A stretch of 32,475 bases of DNA from a virus. Every line of letters begins with the position of its first letter. Position 1 is the stretch's first letter. This document shows, in pieces, positions 4,033 to 20,981 of the stretch. The stretch covers positions 1 through 32,475 of the IMG/VR virus record IMGVR_UViG_3300042868_009001. One strand, 5' to 3'. Position numbers and translations under genes: made by a program. The notes under the pieces were generated by a model. That model had not been told where the DNA came from. It searched no databases and was given only the letters and a program-made list of their open reading frames with translations.

Positions 4033-4571
4033 TGGAAGTGAACATGCGTAAAGAGAATTATCAAATTCCTCAAGTTGAATTTACATTCCGCGAGAACGGT
4101 GAATTTGTAACTCGTACATCTTCGGAACTTTTCGATGGTAAGCGTGTGGTTATTTTCAGTCTGCCTGGTGCATTCACTCCTACTTGCTCTGCTTATCAAC
4201 TCCCTGGATTTGAAGAGAAGTATGAAGAATTCATTGGACTTGGTATTGATGACATTTATTGTGTTTCTGTTAATGATGGGTTTGTCATGAATGCCTGGGC
4301 TAAGGACCAGAACATTGAGAAAGTCAAACTCATTCCAGACGGCAATGCTTACTTCACACGTTCTATGGGATATCTTGTCAACAAGTCTAACCTTGGTTTC
4401 GGTGATCGCTCTTGGCGTTATGCTGCTGTCGTGGATAACGGAGTCATCGAGAAACTATTCGTGGAAGTGGGGCAACGGGACAATGCCGACTCCGACCCTT
4501 ATGAGCAGACTACTCCTGAAGTTGTTCTAGAGTATGTGTCAGCAAATGTAAAAGTTGGCACTACAGTTTAA
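4032..4571 (+). CDS. Peroxiredoxin (Prx5-like, AhpC/TSA superfamily)
   Basis: 179 residues from the ATG that overlaps the hli stop. The peroxidatic site PGAFTPTC (Cys52, with Thr49 and Pro45) and the downstream segments IYCVSVNDGFVMNAW, LIPDGNAYFTRSMG and GDRSWRYAAVVDNG are those of the Prx5/PMP20 type, which reduces H2O2 and alkyl hydroperoxides using thiol donors, often glutaredoxin/glutathione. A second Cys near residue 80 may act in resolution. Cotranscription with two Hli genes points to protection of photosystems from reactive oxygen during infection. The phage glutaredoxin at 16055 is a possible electron donor. A terminator follows. Confidence 0.9.
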   Translation: MEVNMRKENYQIPQVEFTFRENGEFVTRTSSELFDGKRVVIFSLPGAFTPTCSAYQLPGFEEKYEEFIGLGIDDIYCVSVNDGFVMNAWAKDQNIEKVKLIPDGNAYFTRSMGYLVNKSNLGFGDRSWRYAAVVDNGVIEKLFVEVGQRDNADSDPYEQTTPEVVLEYVSANVKVGTTV

Positions 4572-13620: not shown

Positions 13621-13696
13621 AAATAGGTAAACAAATGTTACGGATTTCTAACAATCCTTAACATTGTCAACACCCGTTAACCGAGACCTATGGGTG

Positions 13697-13704
13697 TATA
13701 AATT
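13697..13704 (+). promoter_or_regulatory. Possible late promoter inside the psbA leader
   Basis: TATAAATT, seven of eight bases of the T4 late consensus, 86 nt before the psbA ATG. It would allow psbA to stay expressed late, with a shorter leader that still contains the 13718-13736 hairpin. Confidence 0.4.
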
Positions 13705-13709
13705 ACGTC

Positions 13710-13789
13710 TCTCATATCCCCGCTAAGGGTGCGGGGAGCATAGTATCTCCACCATTTCCCTGATGGTCTTACTATCCTTTTAAAAACAA
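13710..13789 (+). promoter_or_regulatory. Structured psbA 5' leader
   Basis: Three potential hairpins stand in a row: CCCCGC/GCGGGG (13718-13723 with 13731-13736, loop TAAGGGT), GGAG/CTCC directly after, and ACCAT/ATGGT (13751-13755 with 13763-13767). The last ends 22 nt before the ATG. The first is not followed by a T-tract, so it is not a plain terminator. Conserved leader RNAs (PhotoRC class) are known upstream of psbA in cyanobacteria and cyanophages; this may be one, but I cannot confirm the match. Confidence 0.5.
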
Positions 13790-16054: not shown

Positions 16055-16291
16055 ATGAAGTTTACAATTTACTCAAAAGATGGATGTCCATATTGCACAA
16101 AAGTGCAGCAGGTGTTACAATTGGCTGAGTTGCAATATGTCATATACAAACTGAATACTGATTTCACTCGTGAAGAATTCTATGCAGAATTTGGAGAAGG
16201 ATCAACTTTCCCTCAAGTAGTTGTTGGTGATCAGCATATTGGTGGTTGCACTGATACGGTTCAATATCTGAAGGAGCAGAATCTAGTTTGA
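16055..16291 (+). CDS. Glutaredoxin
   Basis: 78 residues, the full length of a small dithiol glutaredoxin. The active site is CPYC (Cys11 and Cys14) and the glutathione-binding features follow: TFPQVVVGD with the cis-proline near residue 53, then GGCTDT. It reduces disulfides with glutathione. In T4-like phages glutaredoxins serve ribonucleotide reductase; here it could also recharge the phage peroxiredoxin at 4032. The stop codon overlaps the start of the carbamoyltransferase gene (TGATG), so the two are likely cotranslated. Confidence 0.95.
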   Translation: MKFTIYSKDGCPYCTKVQQVLQLAELQYVIYKLNTDFTREEFYAEFGEGSTFPQVVVGDQHIGGCTDTVQYLKEQNLV

Positions 16292-17907
16292 TGAATATAC
16301 TTTCTATAGCATTCAATAATCATGAAAGTAGTTTGACTTTTCTGAAAAATGGAAAAATTAAACATCATATTCTTGCAGAAAGAATAACAAAAAGAAAGCA
16401 TGAATGCAAAATTGATTCAACATTTATGTTTTTTGTTGAAGATTTGCAAGAAGAATATGATCTATTGTCGATCAACATTTATAATTGTAGACATGTATTT
16501 GATAAGTATTCTGATGTTTTAAAAAATCTTTTTTTTACTTTAGATTATAAAAAACAAGCAATTTCTAAAAATGACGATTTTAGAATCACTTTAGGTAAAC
16601 ATCATTTATGTCATGCATATAGTGGATTTTATTCCTCTAAATTTAAAGATGCTTTGTGTTTTGTTTTTGATGGAGATGGATCTAGATTTTTCCCGACAGA
16701 AGATCAAACTTTAATTGAAAGTGAATCCATCTTTTTATTTAAAGATGAAATTTGTGACAATAGTCCATTATACAAAAAATATAAATTATTGCCAGCAAAT
16801 GGAGATGTTTGTATAAAAAATCCTTCATTAGATTATGATCATGAGATTTCTTCTGAAATAAGTATAGGAAATCAATTTGAATATTTATCTATTGACATGG
16901 GGTTTTCTTGGTTTGGTGCTGGAAAATTAACTGGATTAGCTCCCTATAAAAACTATAAAAATCTTCTTCCGGAAGAATATAATACAAAATATTGGAGAAA
17001 TCAAGTTGATAGATCGTATGATCTTCATTCAGATTCGACAAAAAAAATTATAGAGTTAATAGAAAAATATACAAAAAAAACTGAAATTAAGAATGTAGTA
17101 ATCAGTGGCGGTGTAGCACTCAATTGCTTGATTAATTATTCCCTGGTAAAACATTTTCCAGATTTAAATTTTCATATTGATCCTATTTGTAGTGATGGTG
17201 GTATTAGTTTAGGAAACGCTTTGTTGCAATATGTCCAAGAAACAAATAAAATTCCCGATAGAATTCATAATACATATTTTGGACATAAAGAAGAATCTTA
17301 TGATTTGCAAAAATTTGAAAATTCTTCCTTTGCAAATTTATTATCTCAGCAAAAAACAACATATACTGAAATAGCAGATTTAATTGCTCAAGGCAATGTA
17401 ATAGGTTTATTTCAAGGAAGGTCTGAAGTTGGATGCAGAGCATTGGGAAATCGTTCCCTACTTTTTGATCCCAGAGTAACTAATGGAAAAACCATAGTTA
17501 ATAGAATTAAAAAAAGAGAAAATTTTAGACCATTTGCGGCTTCAATTTTATTTGAAGAGGTGAATAATTGGTTTGATTTAAAAACATTGAATGAAAGTCC
17601 ATACATGTCTTTTGCTGTGGATGCTTTTGCCCACACATCAAAAATAGTTCCAGCAGTTATTCATGTTGATGGAACATCTAGAATTCAAACAGTTACTAAG
17701 GATCAAAACTATCATTTTTATAATTTAATTAAAACATTTTATTCAAAAACAAACGTTCCCATGCTTCTAAATACTTCATTCAATCTCGCTGGACGCCCTT
17801 TAGTAGAAACTCTAGATGATGCAATTTATACAATGTTAAATAGCGAAATTGAATATTTGTATCTACCGGAAATTGAAATTCTCATCACTTTAAAAAATGA
17901 AAACTAA
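16291..17907 (+). CDS. Carbamoyltransferase, NodU/CmcH/TobZ family
   Basis: 538 residues from the ATG overlapping the glutaredoxin stop; an in-frame TTG one codon earlier is the alternative. The N-terminal Kae1-like half has the metal/carbamoyl-adenylate site (KHHLCHAYSGF near residue 103, then FDGDGSRFF) and ISGGVALNCL near 270. The C-terminal half has GRSEVGCRALGNRSLLFDPR, ENFRPFAASI and PMLLNTSFNLAGRPLV. The family transfers carbamoyl groups from carbamoyl phosphate, with ATP, onto hydroxyls of sugars or antibiotics. The phage substrate is unknown; glycans made by the cluster at 1-3 kb or modified nucleotides are options. It is strikingly AT-rich (sampled lines 15-20% GC) next to psbA/psbD, suggesting a separate origin. 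Confidence 0.9.
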   Translation: MNILSIAFNNHESSLTFLKNGKIKHHILAERITKRKHECKIDSTFMFFVEDLQEEYDLLSINIYNCRHVFDKYSDVLKNLFFTLDYKKQAISKNDDFRITLGKHHLCHAYSGFYSSKFKDALCFVFDGDGSRFFPTEDQTLIESESIFLFKDEICDNSPLYKKYKLLPANGDVCIKNPSLDYDHEISSEISIGNQFEYLSIDMGFSWFGAGKLTGLAPYKNYKNLLPEEYNTKYWRNQVDRSYDLHSDSTKKIIELIEKYTKKTEIKNVVISGGVALNCLINYSLVKHFPDLNFHIDPICSDGGISLGNALLQYVQETNKIPDRIHNTYFGHKEESYDLQKFENSSFANLLSQQKTTYTEIADLIAQGNVIGLFQGRSEVGCRALGNRSLLFDPRVTNGKTIVNRIKKRENFRPFAASILFEEVNNWFDLKTLNESPYMSFAVDAFAHTSKIVPAVIHVDGTSRIQTVTKDQNYHFYNLIKTFYSKTNVPMLLNTSFNLAGRPLVETLDDAIYTMLNSEIEYLYLPEIEILITLKNEN

Positions 17908-19366: not shown

Positions 19367-19548
19367 GTTCAGGTTTTAGTGAAGAGAAAATTGAAGTATC
19401 GATTGATAAAGATAAACTCCAAGAAGTTTTGAAAGTTTATAAAAGAATTAAGCGATATCAAAGATCTAGTTTATTTGAAATTAAAACTATGGATGGAACA
19501 GAAACTCTTGTGAGTGATTTACTTAAGGAATTGGACGAAAATGGGTAA
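19363..19548 (+). CDS. Small charged protein, unknown function
   Basis: 61 residues, over 40% charged (KIEVSIDKDKLQEVLKVYKRIKRYQRSS...TLVSDLLKELDENG), probably two helices. It overlaps both the previous stop and the speD start, so it is part of the same translationally coupled run. No function can be assigned. Confidence 0.6.
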   Translation: MSSGFSEEKIEVSIDKDKLQEVLKVYKRIKRYQRSSLFEIKTMDGTETLVSDLLKELDENG

Positions 19549-19867
19549 GCATTATCTTTTAAATTTGTACGGGTGTTCATTTGTTCTATTGGACGATGAA
19601 CAATGCCTTATAGATCTACTAGAAAATGCTGCAGTAGCAAGTGGTGCCACGGTGGTTCAAACGATTTCAAAAAAGTTTGAACCACAAGGGGTCACTGTCA
19701 TCTGTTTATTATCGGAAAGTCATATCAGTATTCACACATGGCCTGAGGAAGGTAAAGCGGCAGTGGATGTTTATACCTGTGGAGATTGTAATCCAAAGAT
19801 AGGATGTGATATAATTATTCAACAACTTTATGCTCAGAATCATACTCTGAGTTACATAGAACGGTAA
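19541..19867 (+). CDS. speD: S-adenosylmethionine decarboxylase proenzyme
   Basis: 108 residues from ATG 19541, close to the class 1B (Thermotoga/Bacillus) length. The self-cleavage motif is SESHISIHTWPEEG: chain scission between Glu59 and Ser60 would leave a pyruvoyl cofactor on Ser60. His65 and Cys80 (VYTCGDC) match the proton-donor residues of the family. It makes decarboxylated AdoMet, the aminopropyl donor for spermidine. A speD gene is common in cyanophages; polyamines may aid DNA packaging or support host photosystems. It ends a run of overlapping small genes and is followed by a riboswitch unit. Confidence 0.93.
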   Translation: MGKHYLLNLYGCSFVLLDDEQCLIDLLENAAVASGATVVQTISKKFEPQGVTVICLLSESHISIHTWPEEGKAAVDVYTCGDCNPKIGCDIIIQQLYAQNHTLSYIER

Positions 19868-19886
19868 CAAAAGTTACAAAAAAACT

Positions 19887-19900
19887 ATCTAATATATTAT
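19887..19900 (+). promoter_or_regulatory. Probable promoter -10 region for the riboswitch unit
   Basis: AT-rich TCTAATATATTAT contains TAATAT (19890-19895) and TATTAT (19895-19900). A start near 19901 would begin exactly at the first riboswitch helix. The -35 match is weak (GTTACA at 19873-19878), so an activator or another sigma factor may be involved. Confidence 0.4.
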
Positions 19901-19946
19901 ACGTTCATCCCAATAGGGACGGAAGTAGGGAAACTGAAGGAACGCA
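19901..19946 (+). promoter_or_regulatory. Glutamine riboswitch (downstream-peptide / glnA class)
   Basis: Helix P1 pairs CGTTC (19902-19906) with GAACG (19940-19944). P2 pairs TCCC (19908-19911) with GGGA (19916-19919). The conserved core GACGGAAGTAGG (19918-19929) and the 3' CTGAAGGAACGC (19934-19945) follow in the order of the cyanobacterial glnA and downstream-peptide RNAs, which bind L-glutamine. The location also fits the downstream-peptide class: a short peptide gene starts 30 nt after it. The match is by eye to remembered consensus. Phage and metagenomic members of this class are known, so the class is not new, but it shows nitrogen sensing in this phage. Confidence 0.85.
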
Positions 19947-19975
19947 AATTTACCACCAAGTAAAGGAGCAAACCT

Positions 19976-20107
19976 ATGACAACTGCAACATATCGTGGAG
20001 TAAAATACAATGTTGAAGATCGTAAACTTAACGTTCTTCAACTTTTAAAAGATCAAATTGAAAAGGCAGAGCGTATCAAACAAGCTCAGATGCAAATGAA
20101 AGGATAA
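19976..20107 (+). CDS. 43-aa peptide controlled by the glutamine riboswitch
   Basis: Starts at ATG 19976 after AAAGGAG. The N-terminus TTATYRGVKYNV resembles the TYRGxxY motif at the start of the small cyanobacterial DUF4278 proteins; the rest is one charged amphipathic helix (KLNVLQLLKDQIEKAERIKQAQMQMKG). In host cyanobacteria, glutamine riboswitches of this class control short proteins, including inhibitors of glutamine synthetase. This peptide may likewise adjust nitrogen assimilation in the infected cell, which is inference. It is a single-gene unit with its own riboswitch and terminator. Confidence 0.82.
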   Translation: MTTATYRGVKYNVEDRKLNVLQLLKDQIEKAERIKQAQMQMKG

Positions 20108-20114
20108 TTTAAAT

Positions 20115-20139
20115 GGAGGGTTTACACCCTCCTTTTTTT
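20115..20139 (+). terminator. Rho-independent terminator after the 43-aa peptide gene
   Basis: GGAGGGT (20115-20121) / ACCCTCC (20126-20132) with a TTAC loop and seven T. Its loop contributes to the next promoter's -35 box. Confidence 0.93.
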
Positions 20140-20149
20140 ATGTTAAAAT
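20121..20149 (+). promoter_or_regulatory. Sigma70-type promoter nested in a terminator
   Basis: TTTACA at 20121-20126 covers the terminator loop; TAAAAT follows at 20144-20149 after exactly 17 nt. It would start transcription near 20156, 15 nt before the 56-aa gene. Same architecture as 3557-3593. Confidence 0.68.
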
Positions 20150-20170: not shown

Positions 20171-20341
20171 ATGGACCGAGACAAACTTAAATTGATTGTT
20201 CGCAATCTTGAATTGCTCGTAGATTCTTTGAAGTCCGAAGTTTATTCGGACACTCAAAGTTACCTAGAGTATGATAAAATTACAGCAGCTCTCAGTGACT
20301 ATGATGAGGTGTTTGAAGACGATGATGGTTACCCCGATTAA
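20171..20341 (+). CDS. 56-aa acidic protein, unknown function
   Basis: A helical N-terminus (DRDKLKLIVRNLELLVDSLKSEVY) is followed by a second helix (SYLEYDKITAALSDYDEVF) and an acidic tail EDDDGYPD. The frame fills the space between the promoter at 20121 and thyX and stops five bases before the thyX ATG. Acidic mini-proteins in this position are typical of T4-like phage early regions, where some bind host proteins; no specific function is indicated. Confidence 0.68.
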   Translation: MDRDKLKLIVRNLELLVDSLKSEVYSDTQSYLEYDKITAALSDYDEVFEDDDGYPD

Positions 20342-20345
20342 TTAA

Positions 20346-20981
20346 ATGTCAGTAAAACTTATTTCTATTACTCCAGATGCCGAAAAAACAATGGCATACA
20401 TTGCAAGAGTCTCTAATCCTGCTAATCAGGACAACGAGAACTATGCCAAGTTGCTTGCTTATTGTATTAAGCATAATCATTGGTCTGTGTTTGAGCAGTC
20501 TTCTATGACGCTTGAGATTGAAACAACTCGTGGTATTGCAGCCCAGATACTTCGTCACCGTTCTTTTACATTTCAAGAATTTTCTCAGCGTTATGCGGAC
20601 ACAAATCTTTTGTCTGAACATATTCCAACTCCAGAACTTCGTCGTCAAGACACCAAGAATCGTCAAAATTCCATTGATGATTTTGATGGTTATTTAAAAC
20701 TTACTCTTCAAGGTGAAATTGCAAAGCATTTTGAAGATGCAAATAAACTCTATAAGAAACTTCTTAATCATGGAGTAGCAAAGGAATGTGCTCGCTTTGT
20801 ACTACCCTTAGCGACGCCCACACGCATCTATATGACGGGATCTTGCCGTTCCTGGATTCATTATATCAATCTCCGTTCGGCAAATGGAACTCAGAAAGAG
20901 CATATGGATATTGCGCTCGAATGTAAAAAAGCATTTACGGAACAGTTTCCTTCAGTGTCCGAAGCTTTGGCATGGATCTAA
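20346..20981 (+). CDS. thyX: Flavin-dependent thymidylate synthase ThyX
   Basis: 211 residues, the usual length. The ThyX signature RHRSFTFQEFSQRY runs from Arg70 to Tyr83 (RHR...S...RY, binding FAD and dUMP). A second conserved region is CARFVLPLATPTRIYMTGSCRSWIHYINLR. The enzyme methylates dUMP to dTMP using methylene-tetrahydrofolate and NADPH, supplying thymidine for phage DNA synthesis independently of ThyA. It is probably expressed with the 56-aa gene from the promoter at 20121. PhoH and an exonuclease gene follow in the same direction. Confidence 0.96.
   Translation: MSVKLISITPDAEKTMAYIARVSNPANQDNENYAKLLAYCIKHNHWSVFEQSSMTLEIETTRGIAAQILRHRSFTFQEFSQRYADTNLLSEHIPTPELRRQDTKNRQNSIDDFDGYLKLTLQGEIAKHFEDANKLYKKLLNHGVAKECARFVLPLATPTRIYMTGSCRSWIHYINLRSANGTQKEHMDIALECKKAFTEQFPSVSEALAWI

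Follow-up and report, generated by a model that had tools for sequence, protein, structure and literature searches.

A glutamine riboswitch and a putative NtcA box precede the gene for a DUF4278-like micro-protein in a cyanophage

We report that a type-1 glutamine riboswitch aptamer stands before a conserved gene for a 43-residue protein in a cyanophage sequence of 32,475 nucleotides (IMG/VR virus record IMGVR_UViG_3300042868_009001), the whole of which is called the window here. Our preferred reading, to which we give a probability of roughly 55%, is that this unit is a stand-alone cassette under dual control by NtcA and glutamine, from which a DUF4278-like micro-protein is made only when the cell is replete with nitrogen. 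The observations behind this reading are the aptamer itself, the position of an NtcA box, the potential for a hairpin over the Shine-Dalgarno site, the conservation of the protein and the conservation of the riboswitch-protein pairing in relatives.

The gene content of the window matches that of T4-like cyanophages, and its DNA matches include S-SKS1, P-TIM68, S-SSM7 and S-PM2. Elsewhere the window carries a PhotoRC-II RNA (13659-13751, 83 bits), a motif known from cyanophages, and a carbamoyltransferase-type gene (16288-17907; Carbam_trans_C, 199 bits). The features of the unit and of its immediate neighbors are as follows.

19541-19867, plus strand: speD, S-adenosylmethionine decarboxylase (Pfam AdoMet_dc, 122 bits), the 5' neighbor, outside the unit.
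19864-19877, no strand assigned: predicted NtcA box GTAACAAAAGTTAC, an exact GTA-N8-TAC that overlaps the speD stop codon.
19889-19896, plus strand: promoter element CTAATATA, a poor match to the family consensus TATAnATA.
19900-19948, plus strand: type-1 glutamine riboswitch aptamer (Rfam RF01739), with the core GGAAGTAGG and a GAAA loop on P3.
19902-19906 with 19940-19944, plus strand: aptamer stem P1, part of the RF01739 match.
19908-19911 with 19916-19919, plus strand: aptamer stem P2, part of the RF01739 match.
19944-19969, plus strand: expression platform hairpin, from folds and comparative hairpins.
19962-19968, plus strand: Shine-Dalgarno site AAAGGAG, from the sequence.
19976-20107, plus strand: gene for the 43-residue YRG micro-protein (MTTATYRGVKYNVEDRKLNVLQLLKDQIEKAERIKQAQMQMKG), from dN/dS, PHROG matches and AlphaFold2.
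20115-20139, plus strand: intrinsic terminator GGAGGGTTTACACCCTCC (stem 20115-20132) followed by seven T.
20171-20341, plus strand: 56-residue open reading frame (ORF) without a Pfam match, the next gene 3' of the unit and outside it.
20346-20981: thyX (169 bits in the Pfam search), after the 56-residue ORF and outside the unit.

The RF01739 covariance model, whose gathering score is 35, recovered the aptamer with 56.4 bits (E = 4.7e-10 for the whole window). A preliminary description of this DNA had proposed a single-gene unit composed of a glutamine-class riboswitch, an AAAGGAG site, a 43-residue peptide gene and a perfect terminator; each of these elements was found, with P1 and the core at the positions claimed, and the 5' edge of the unit had to be revised, as the unit begins upstream at the NtcA box. 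Terminator-like sites number two in the window against 0.3 in shuffles, and both are the two strands of the stem at 20115-20132. Among 63 distinct phage YRG aptamers, 27 different paired stems were seen at P2, which therefore covaries; P2 alone is informative in this respect because the search pattern had partly fixed P1 and the core. None of the 43-residue relatives retrieved has lost P1 or the core while keeping the peptide, a weak check on the riboswitch because these relatives were retrieved by the riboswitch pattern. In hosts, glutamine raises expression through riboswitches of both types (PMC6316151).

Directly 3' of P1, UUUAC (19949-19953) can pair with GUAAA (19960-19964) in a hairpin that is extended by GC (19944-19945) with GC (19968-19969), that has G19944 in common with P1 and that covers part of the Shine-Dalgarno site. 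A hairpin covering this site is possible at the same place in most leaders, and its sequence differs between lineages: CUUUUAC/GUAAAGG, CUCUUUAA/UUAAGGAG and CAUCUC/GGAGGUG occur in phage leaders, and GCCUC/GAGGC in host gifB leaders. The arrangement would fit a control of translation that glutamine turns on. Thermodynamic folding of the window left the Shine-Dalgarno site approximately half open whether P1 was forced or free and reproduced no switch, and the ligand-dependent step is therefore put forward only as a probable one.

The 43-residue gene is real and under purifying selection, since pairwise dN/dS values among ten ORFs of this length (that of the window and nine IMG/VR relatives) mostly lie between 0.03 and 0.25. 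In the AlphaFold2 prediction (mean pLDDT, 90.7), the YRG part at residues 3-12 forms a beta-hairpin and residues 13-42 form one helix. Two PHROG profiles matched the peptide, phrog_5049 over residues 1-25 (E = 4.1e-6) and phrog_545 over residues 18-42 (E = 7.2e-8), and its two parts stand in swapped order relative to phrog_545. The YRG part precedes the helix in the window and in S-CREM1, and the order in marine phages is helix-YRG-YRG (for example, at locus L252 after position 2184). A separate helix reading frame lies directly 3' of the YRG gene in DSL-LC02.

The resemblance of the N-terminal TYRGVKY to DUF4278 proteins, to which the preliminary description had drawn attention, was borne out at the level of the motif. 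YRG is invariant in the phage family alignment, and a comparison with hhalign matched that alignment to the N termini of host DUF4278/IF17 proteins with a probability of 70.6% over 10 columns, restricted to the YRGVxY stretch. The resemblance did not extend to the Pfam score: the window peptide reached 13.9 bits with DUF4278 (PF14105), under the gathering threshold of 25.3. The best DUF4278 match within the phage family had an E value of 0.039, and another phage YRG protein passes the threshold with 33 bits. The name "DUF4278 domain-containing protein" is already attached to some cyanophage proteins in BFVD/UniProt. Two other Pfam candidates were discarded as chance matches to the helix, ATP-grasp_6, which fell below the Pfam cutoff and matched 3-4 of 11 members, and MXRA7_helical, which likewise matched only 3-4 of 11. 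A fold search of the PDB and BFVD with the peptide returned nothing significant (a PII-NAGK entry had an E value of 9.8), and a sequence search found no solved structure of it.

The preliminary description had further connected the peptide with inhibition of glutamine synthetase, and this connection was lost on closer comparison. An IF7-like C-terminal module was sought in the phage family with hhalign, which gave a probability of 0.5%. The host inactivating-factor module has three arginines (R6, R19 and R26) that do not vary among the aligned sequences, and inspection of the phage alignment showed no counterpart to any of the three in the phage helix; loss of one such arginine abolishes binding by Synechocystis IF7 (PMC6316151). 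On the profile and arginine tests we reject a glutamine synthetase inhibitor by homology, and the claim is unsupported because the IF7-like module and the three arginines are missing and the DUF4278 score is below threshold. Judged by these tests, the peptide resembles DUF4278 proteins in its motif and does not qualify as an inactivating factor. It is very improbable, given this lack of profile similarity to the glutamine synthetase-binding module and of the arginines, that the peptide is a minimal inactivating factor that inhibits host glutamine synthetase at high glutamine in the manner of IF7 and IF17, even though its control is of the same kind as that of gifB (PMC6316151) and a 62-residue host mini-IF17 (L247) is also predicted, with lower confidence, to have the hairpin-plus-helix layout. 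In a second alternative, the peptide would serve as a decoy or antagonist, an IF17 N terminus without the inhibitory arm, which would displace host DUF4278/IF proteins or redirect their turnover and so keep glutamine synthetase working during infection. The IF7 arm is generally absent from phage YRG proteins and the N terminus of IF17 controls the stability of that factor (PMC6316151), but the target of such a decoy is hypothetical and classical control by inactivating factors is thought to be missing from many marine picocyanobacteria (PMC6316151), and we consider this alternative quite unlikely.

The pairing of riboswitch and peptide exceeds chance, as it recurs in S-CREM1 and in many IMG/VR contigs. 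S-CREM1 encodes a 48-residue homolog (SCREM1_206; 46.7% identity, E = 2e-4) directly 3' of a glnA riboswitch annotated by the depositors, and this pairing is independent of our riboswitch pattern because it was found by a protein search. In IMG/VR, the pattern of an aptamer followed by a YRG protein matched at least 119 stretches, and the YRG proteins among the matches listed have 17-62 residues and one to three YRG copies. The riboswitch pattern by itself also matched at least 119 stretches; among the matches listed with a readable next ORF, nearly all such ORFs are short and belong to several unrelated families, and approximately one-fifth of the next ORFs start with a YRG motif like that of the window. 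In GTDB genomes, the aptamer-then-YRG pattern was found at 35 loci, which are mostly gifB-like, with YRG repeats and then an IF7-like arm.

Other peptides stand behind this riboswitch class in phage contigs. At several loci (L078, L109 from position 4228, L062, L092 and others) a PqqA peptide (43.9 bits in Pfam; cutoff, 21.1) stands behind a glutamine riboswitch, between capsid-like and tail-fiber-like genes; viral PqqA is known from Lake Baikal, in a report whose accessible portions do not mention a riboswitch (PMC7678222). Further families of short ORFs behind phage glutamine riboswitches (L003, L006, L007, L013 and many others) include one of 31 residues (MSWTDYCRK...RQRKHYVD), one of 64-65 residues (...NGGGTSGYIVKHG...NNW) and one of 76-78 residues (...YRNRAWILQWLPPRW).

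This diversity bears on an alternative in which the riboswitch and NtcA box merely time a gene unrelated to nitrogen metabolism, the cargo being interchangeable and glutamine reporting the state of the host or the stage of infection. Such a view would accommodate the unrelated small ORFs behind the same riboswitch class in IMG/VR, including the PqqA-like ones in capsid-tail regions, and the shuffled order of helix and YRG parts between phages. We nevertheless think it unlikely, as YRG is the usual cargo at this locus in cyanophages and the YRG motif is common to host proteins under nitrogen control (PMC6316151).

The second control element was recognized by comparison of leaders. Within the window alone, GTA-N8-TAC occurs six times against 4.1 expected, which is not significant. 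However, of the 54 distinct leaders in the ATYRG/VVYRG families, 47 have a box that starts 38 or 39 nt 5' of P1, and none of the 24 leaders of other YRG families has one there. For this contrast the families were divided by eye after the data had been seen, and relatedness inflates the count. The boxes of the ATYRG/VVYRG leaders comprise 22 different 14-mers, and the GTA and TAC columns stand out amid variable neighbors in the aligned leaders; mononucleotide shuffles place a box at that spot in approximately 0.2% of cases. None of the aptamers preceding non-YRG genes has an NtcA box there. The named isolates S-CREM1 and DSL-LC02 also carry the box, whereas the marine relatives examined mostly do not, and several have -35/-10-like promoters instead. 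The link to host nitrogen status that had been proposed for this unit is strengthened by the conserved putative NtcA box.

A -10-like element had also been proposed, and a conserved promoter-like element does exist at 19889-19896, its A.ATA columns being nearly invariant in 47 aligned leaders, but it is not a clear sigma-70 -10. The element appears to be closer to the T4 late TATAAATA, although it could also be a weak -10, and its class is uncertain. From its position, transcription is predicted to start at 19900-19902, the first bases of the aptamer, so that the RNA would begin at the aptamer 5' end and the NtcA box would be centered at approximately -30. In gifA and gifB, NtcA sites occupy the core-promoter positions -30.5 and -7.5 and are associated with repression (PMC6316151). 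Because the center of the box matches a repressing gif site, we favor repression over activation, and we infer from box position alone that the window box may be a repressing site.

If NtcA instead activated the unit, the two inputs would be opposed, and the gene would be transcribed in nitrogen stress and translated once glutamine rises. Activating NtcA arrangements have approximately 22-23 nt between the box and the promoter element, and here only approximately 11 nt separate the end of the box from that element. Sullivan et al. found NtcA sites in 16 of 16 cyanophages compared and took them to promote expression (PMC3037559), which speaks for activation, whereas the center near -30 coincides with the repressing gif position (PMC6316151); overall, we regard activation as somewhat improbable.

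In the preferred reading, that of a cassette expressed in nitrogen-replete cells, host NtcA would sit on the box at approximately -30 and block transcription when 2-oxoglutarate is high, that is, under nitrogen stress. When nitrogen is plentiful, NtcA would leave, and a message would be made whose 5' end is the glutamine aptamer. Glutamine would then close P1, which would compete with the hairpin covering the Shine-Dalgarno site, and translation would start. The product, a YRG beta-hairpin with a long helix, would most likely regulate nitrogen assimilation as a small protein that binds other proteins, a role modeled on the identically controlled DUF4278 proteins of hosts; glutamine riboswitches occur in host DUF4278 genes, and PMM1846, a DUF4278 protein gene, has an NtcA motif (PMC6316151). 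The phage would in this way keep the regulator running once host gene expression fails. The ligand response, the sign of NtcA action and the target and effect of the protein are inferred.

A related arrangement is widespread in marine T4-like cyanophages. A tblastn search with the GC_937 protein found a YRG/helix protein in 372 phage records, and in sampled marine isolates glutamine aptamers precede this protein. A common place for it is between nrdB and talC; in S-RIM44 the cassette is flanked by speD and thyX, like the unit of the window. Most sampled marine isolates have a second ORF, T4-GC_430, which separates the 5' half of a second aptamer from its 3' half, in the arrangement CGTTCATCC/ATG...GGGACGCAAACGACTGAAGGAACGG. 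This ORF has 50-64 residues and mostly ends in WDAND (L252-L256, L276-L287 and L288 onwards; for example, L256 at 1999-2262), and its stop codon falls inside the aptamer core in 106 of 107 sequences. Across 107 distinct sequences, the four stem pairs that flank it remain paired in 427 of 428 cells, double changes included, although the covariation rests on few changes because most stem columns barely vary. S-CREM1 and ACG-2014f are without the nested ORF, the stem being closed by a short loop, and the closed stretch of ACG-2014f scores 32.1 bits with the Glutamine-II model, just below the cutoff of 33. T4-GC_430 thus appears to sit within the loop of this second aptamer, which resembles Glutamine-II. 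A broader proposal, which we offer tentatively and consider possible rather than probable, is that a portable two-input nitrogen gate, composed of an NtcA box and one or two glutamine aptamers, drives stripped-down IF17-type micro-proteins that retune host nitrogen assimilation, and that in the marine versions the riboswitch folds around one small gene inside the loop of the second aptamer.

Nitrogen can set a limit on phage yield, both in sunlit ocean water and in lakes. If the preferred reading is true, T4-like cyanophages would read the host 2-oxoglutarate and glutamine signals and answer with a micro-protein, and the signal-reading parts of the phage would match the host's own gif control. 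S-CREM1 with Synechococcus CB0101 would offer a ready test system for the role of small picocyanobacterial DUF4278 proteins, and the same pair suits the question of whether phages manipulate glutamine synthetase regulation.

The preliminary description regarded the sensing of host nitrogen by a phage as a notable auxiliary strategy. The nitrogen link stands, but the riboswitch in itself is not novel, and the claim must be tempered because glutamine riboswitches of T4-like cyanophages are already on record (PMC9964418, PMC9602691). The S-CREM1 paper lists the riboswitch without discussing the gene behind it and considers only PII, glutamine synthetase, transporters and glutamate synthase as what it might control. 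In the open-licence PMC literature we found no description, for phages, of the YRG cargo, of an NtcA box at this fixed position or of a gate that combines the two inputs, and a literature search on phage DUF4278 proteins found none. Phage glutamine riboswitches are thus known, and the YRG cargo and its coupling to NtcA appear to be undescribed.

Among known systems, the methylophage Melnitz and the pelagiphage Mosig also have a phage-borne glutamine riboswitch, but their hosts differ, and the riboswitch is tied to the tmRNA region (PMC9004378) and not to a YRG peptide. The T4-GC_430/GC_937 cassette (phrog_545) places YRG and a related helix behind glutamine aptamers, at nrdB-talC or speD-thyX; unlike in the window, the helix precedes YRG, an extra ORF lies inside the second aptamer and an NtcA box is usually lacking at this place. 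The S-CREM1 glnA riboswitch and SCREM1_206 are closer, with an annotated riboswitch before the homologous 48-residue protein and an NtcA box at -38, although in S-CREM1 there are two aptamers, which stand in tandem and overlap. The small DUF4278 proteins that marine picocyanobacteria encode (for example, PMM1846) are likewise short and DUF4278-type, with a glutamine riboswitch and an NtcA motif (PMC6316151), but theirs are host genes, usually with a type-2 riboswitch, and the likeness to the phage unit is one of description only. Although the phage protein has 43 residues and one YRG copy and is without the IF7-like arm and the conserved arginines, the phage unit shares with the gifB/IF17 unit a type-1 riboswitch, an NtcA box at a core-promoter position, a Shine-Dalgarno hairpin next to the aptamer and a protein that starts with YRG.
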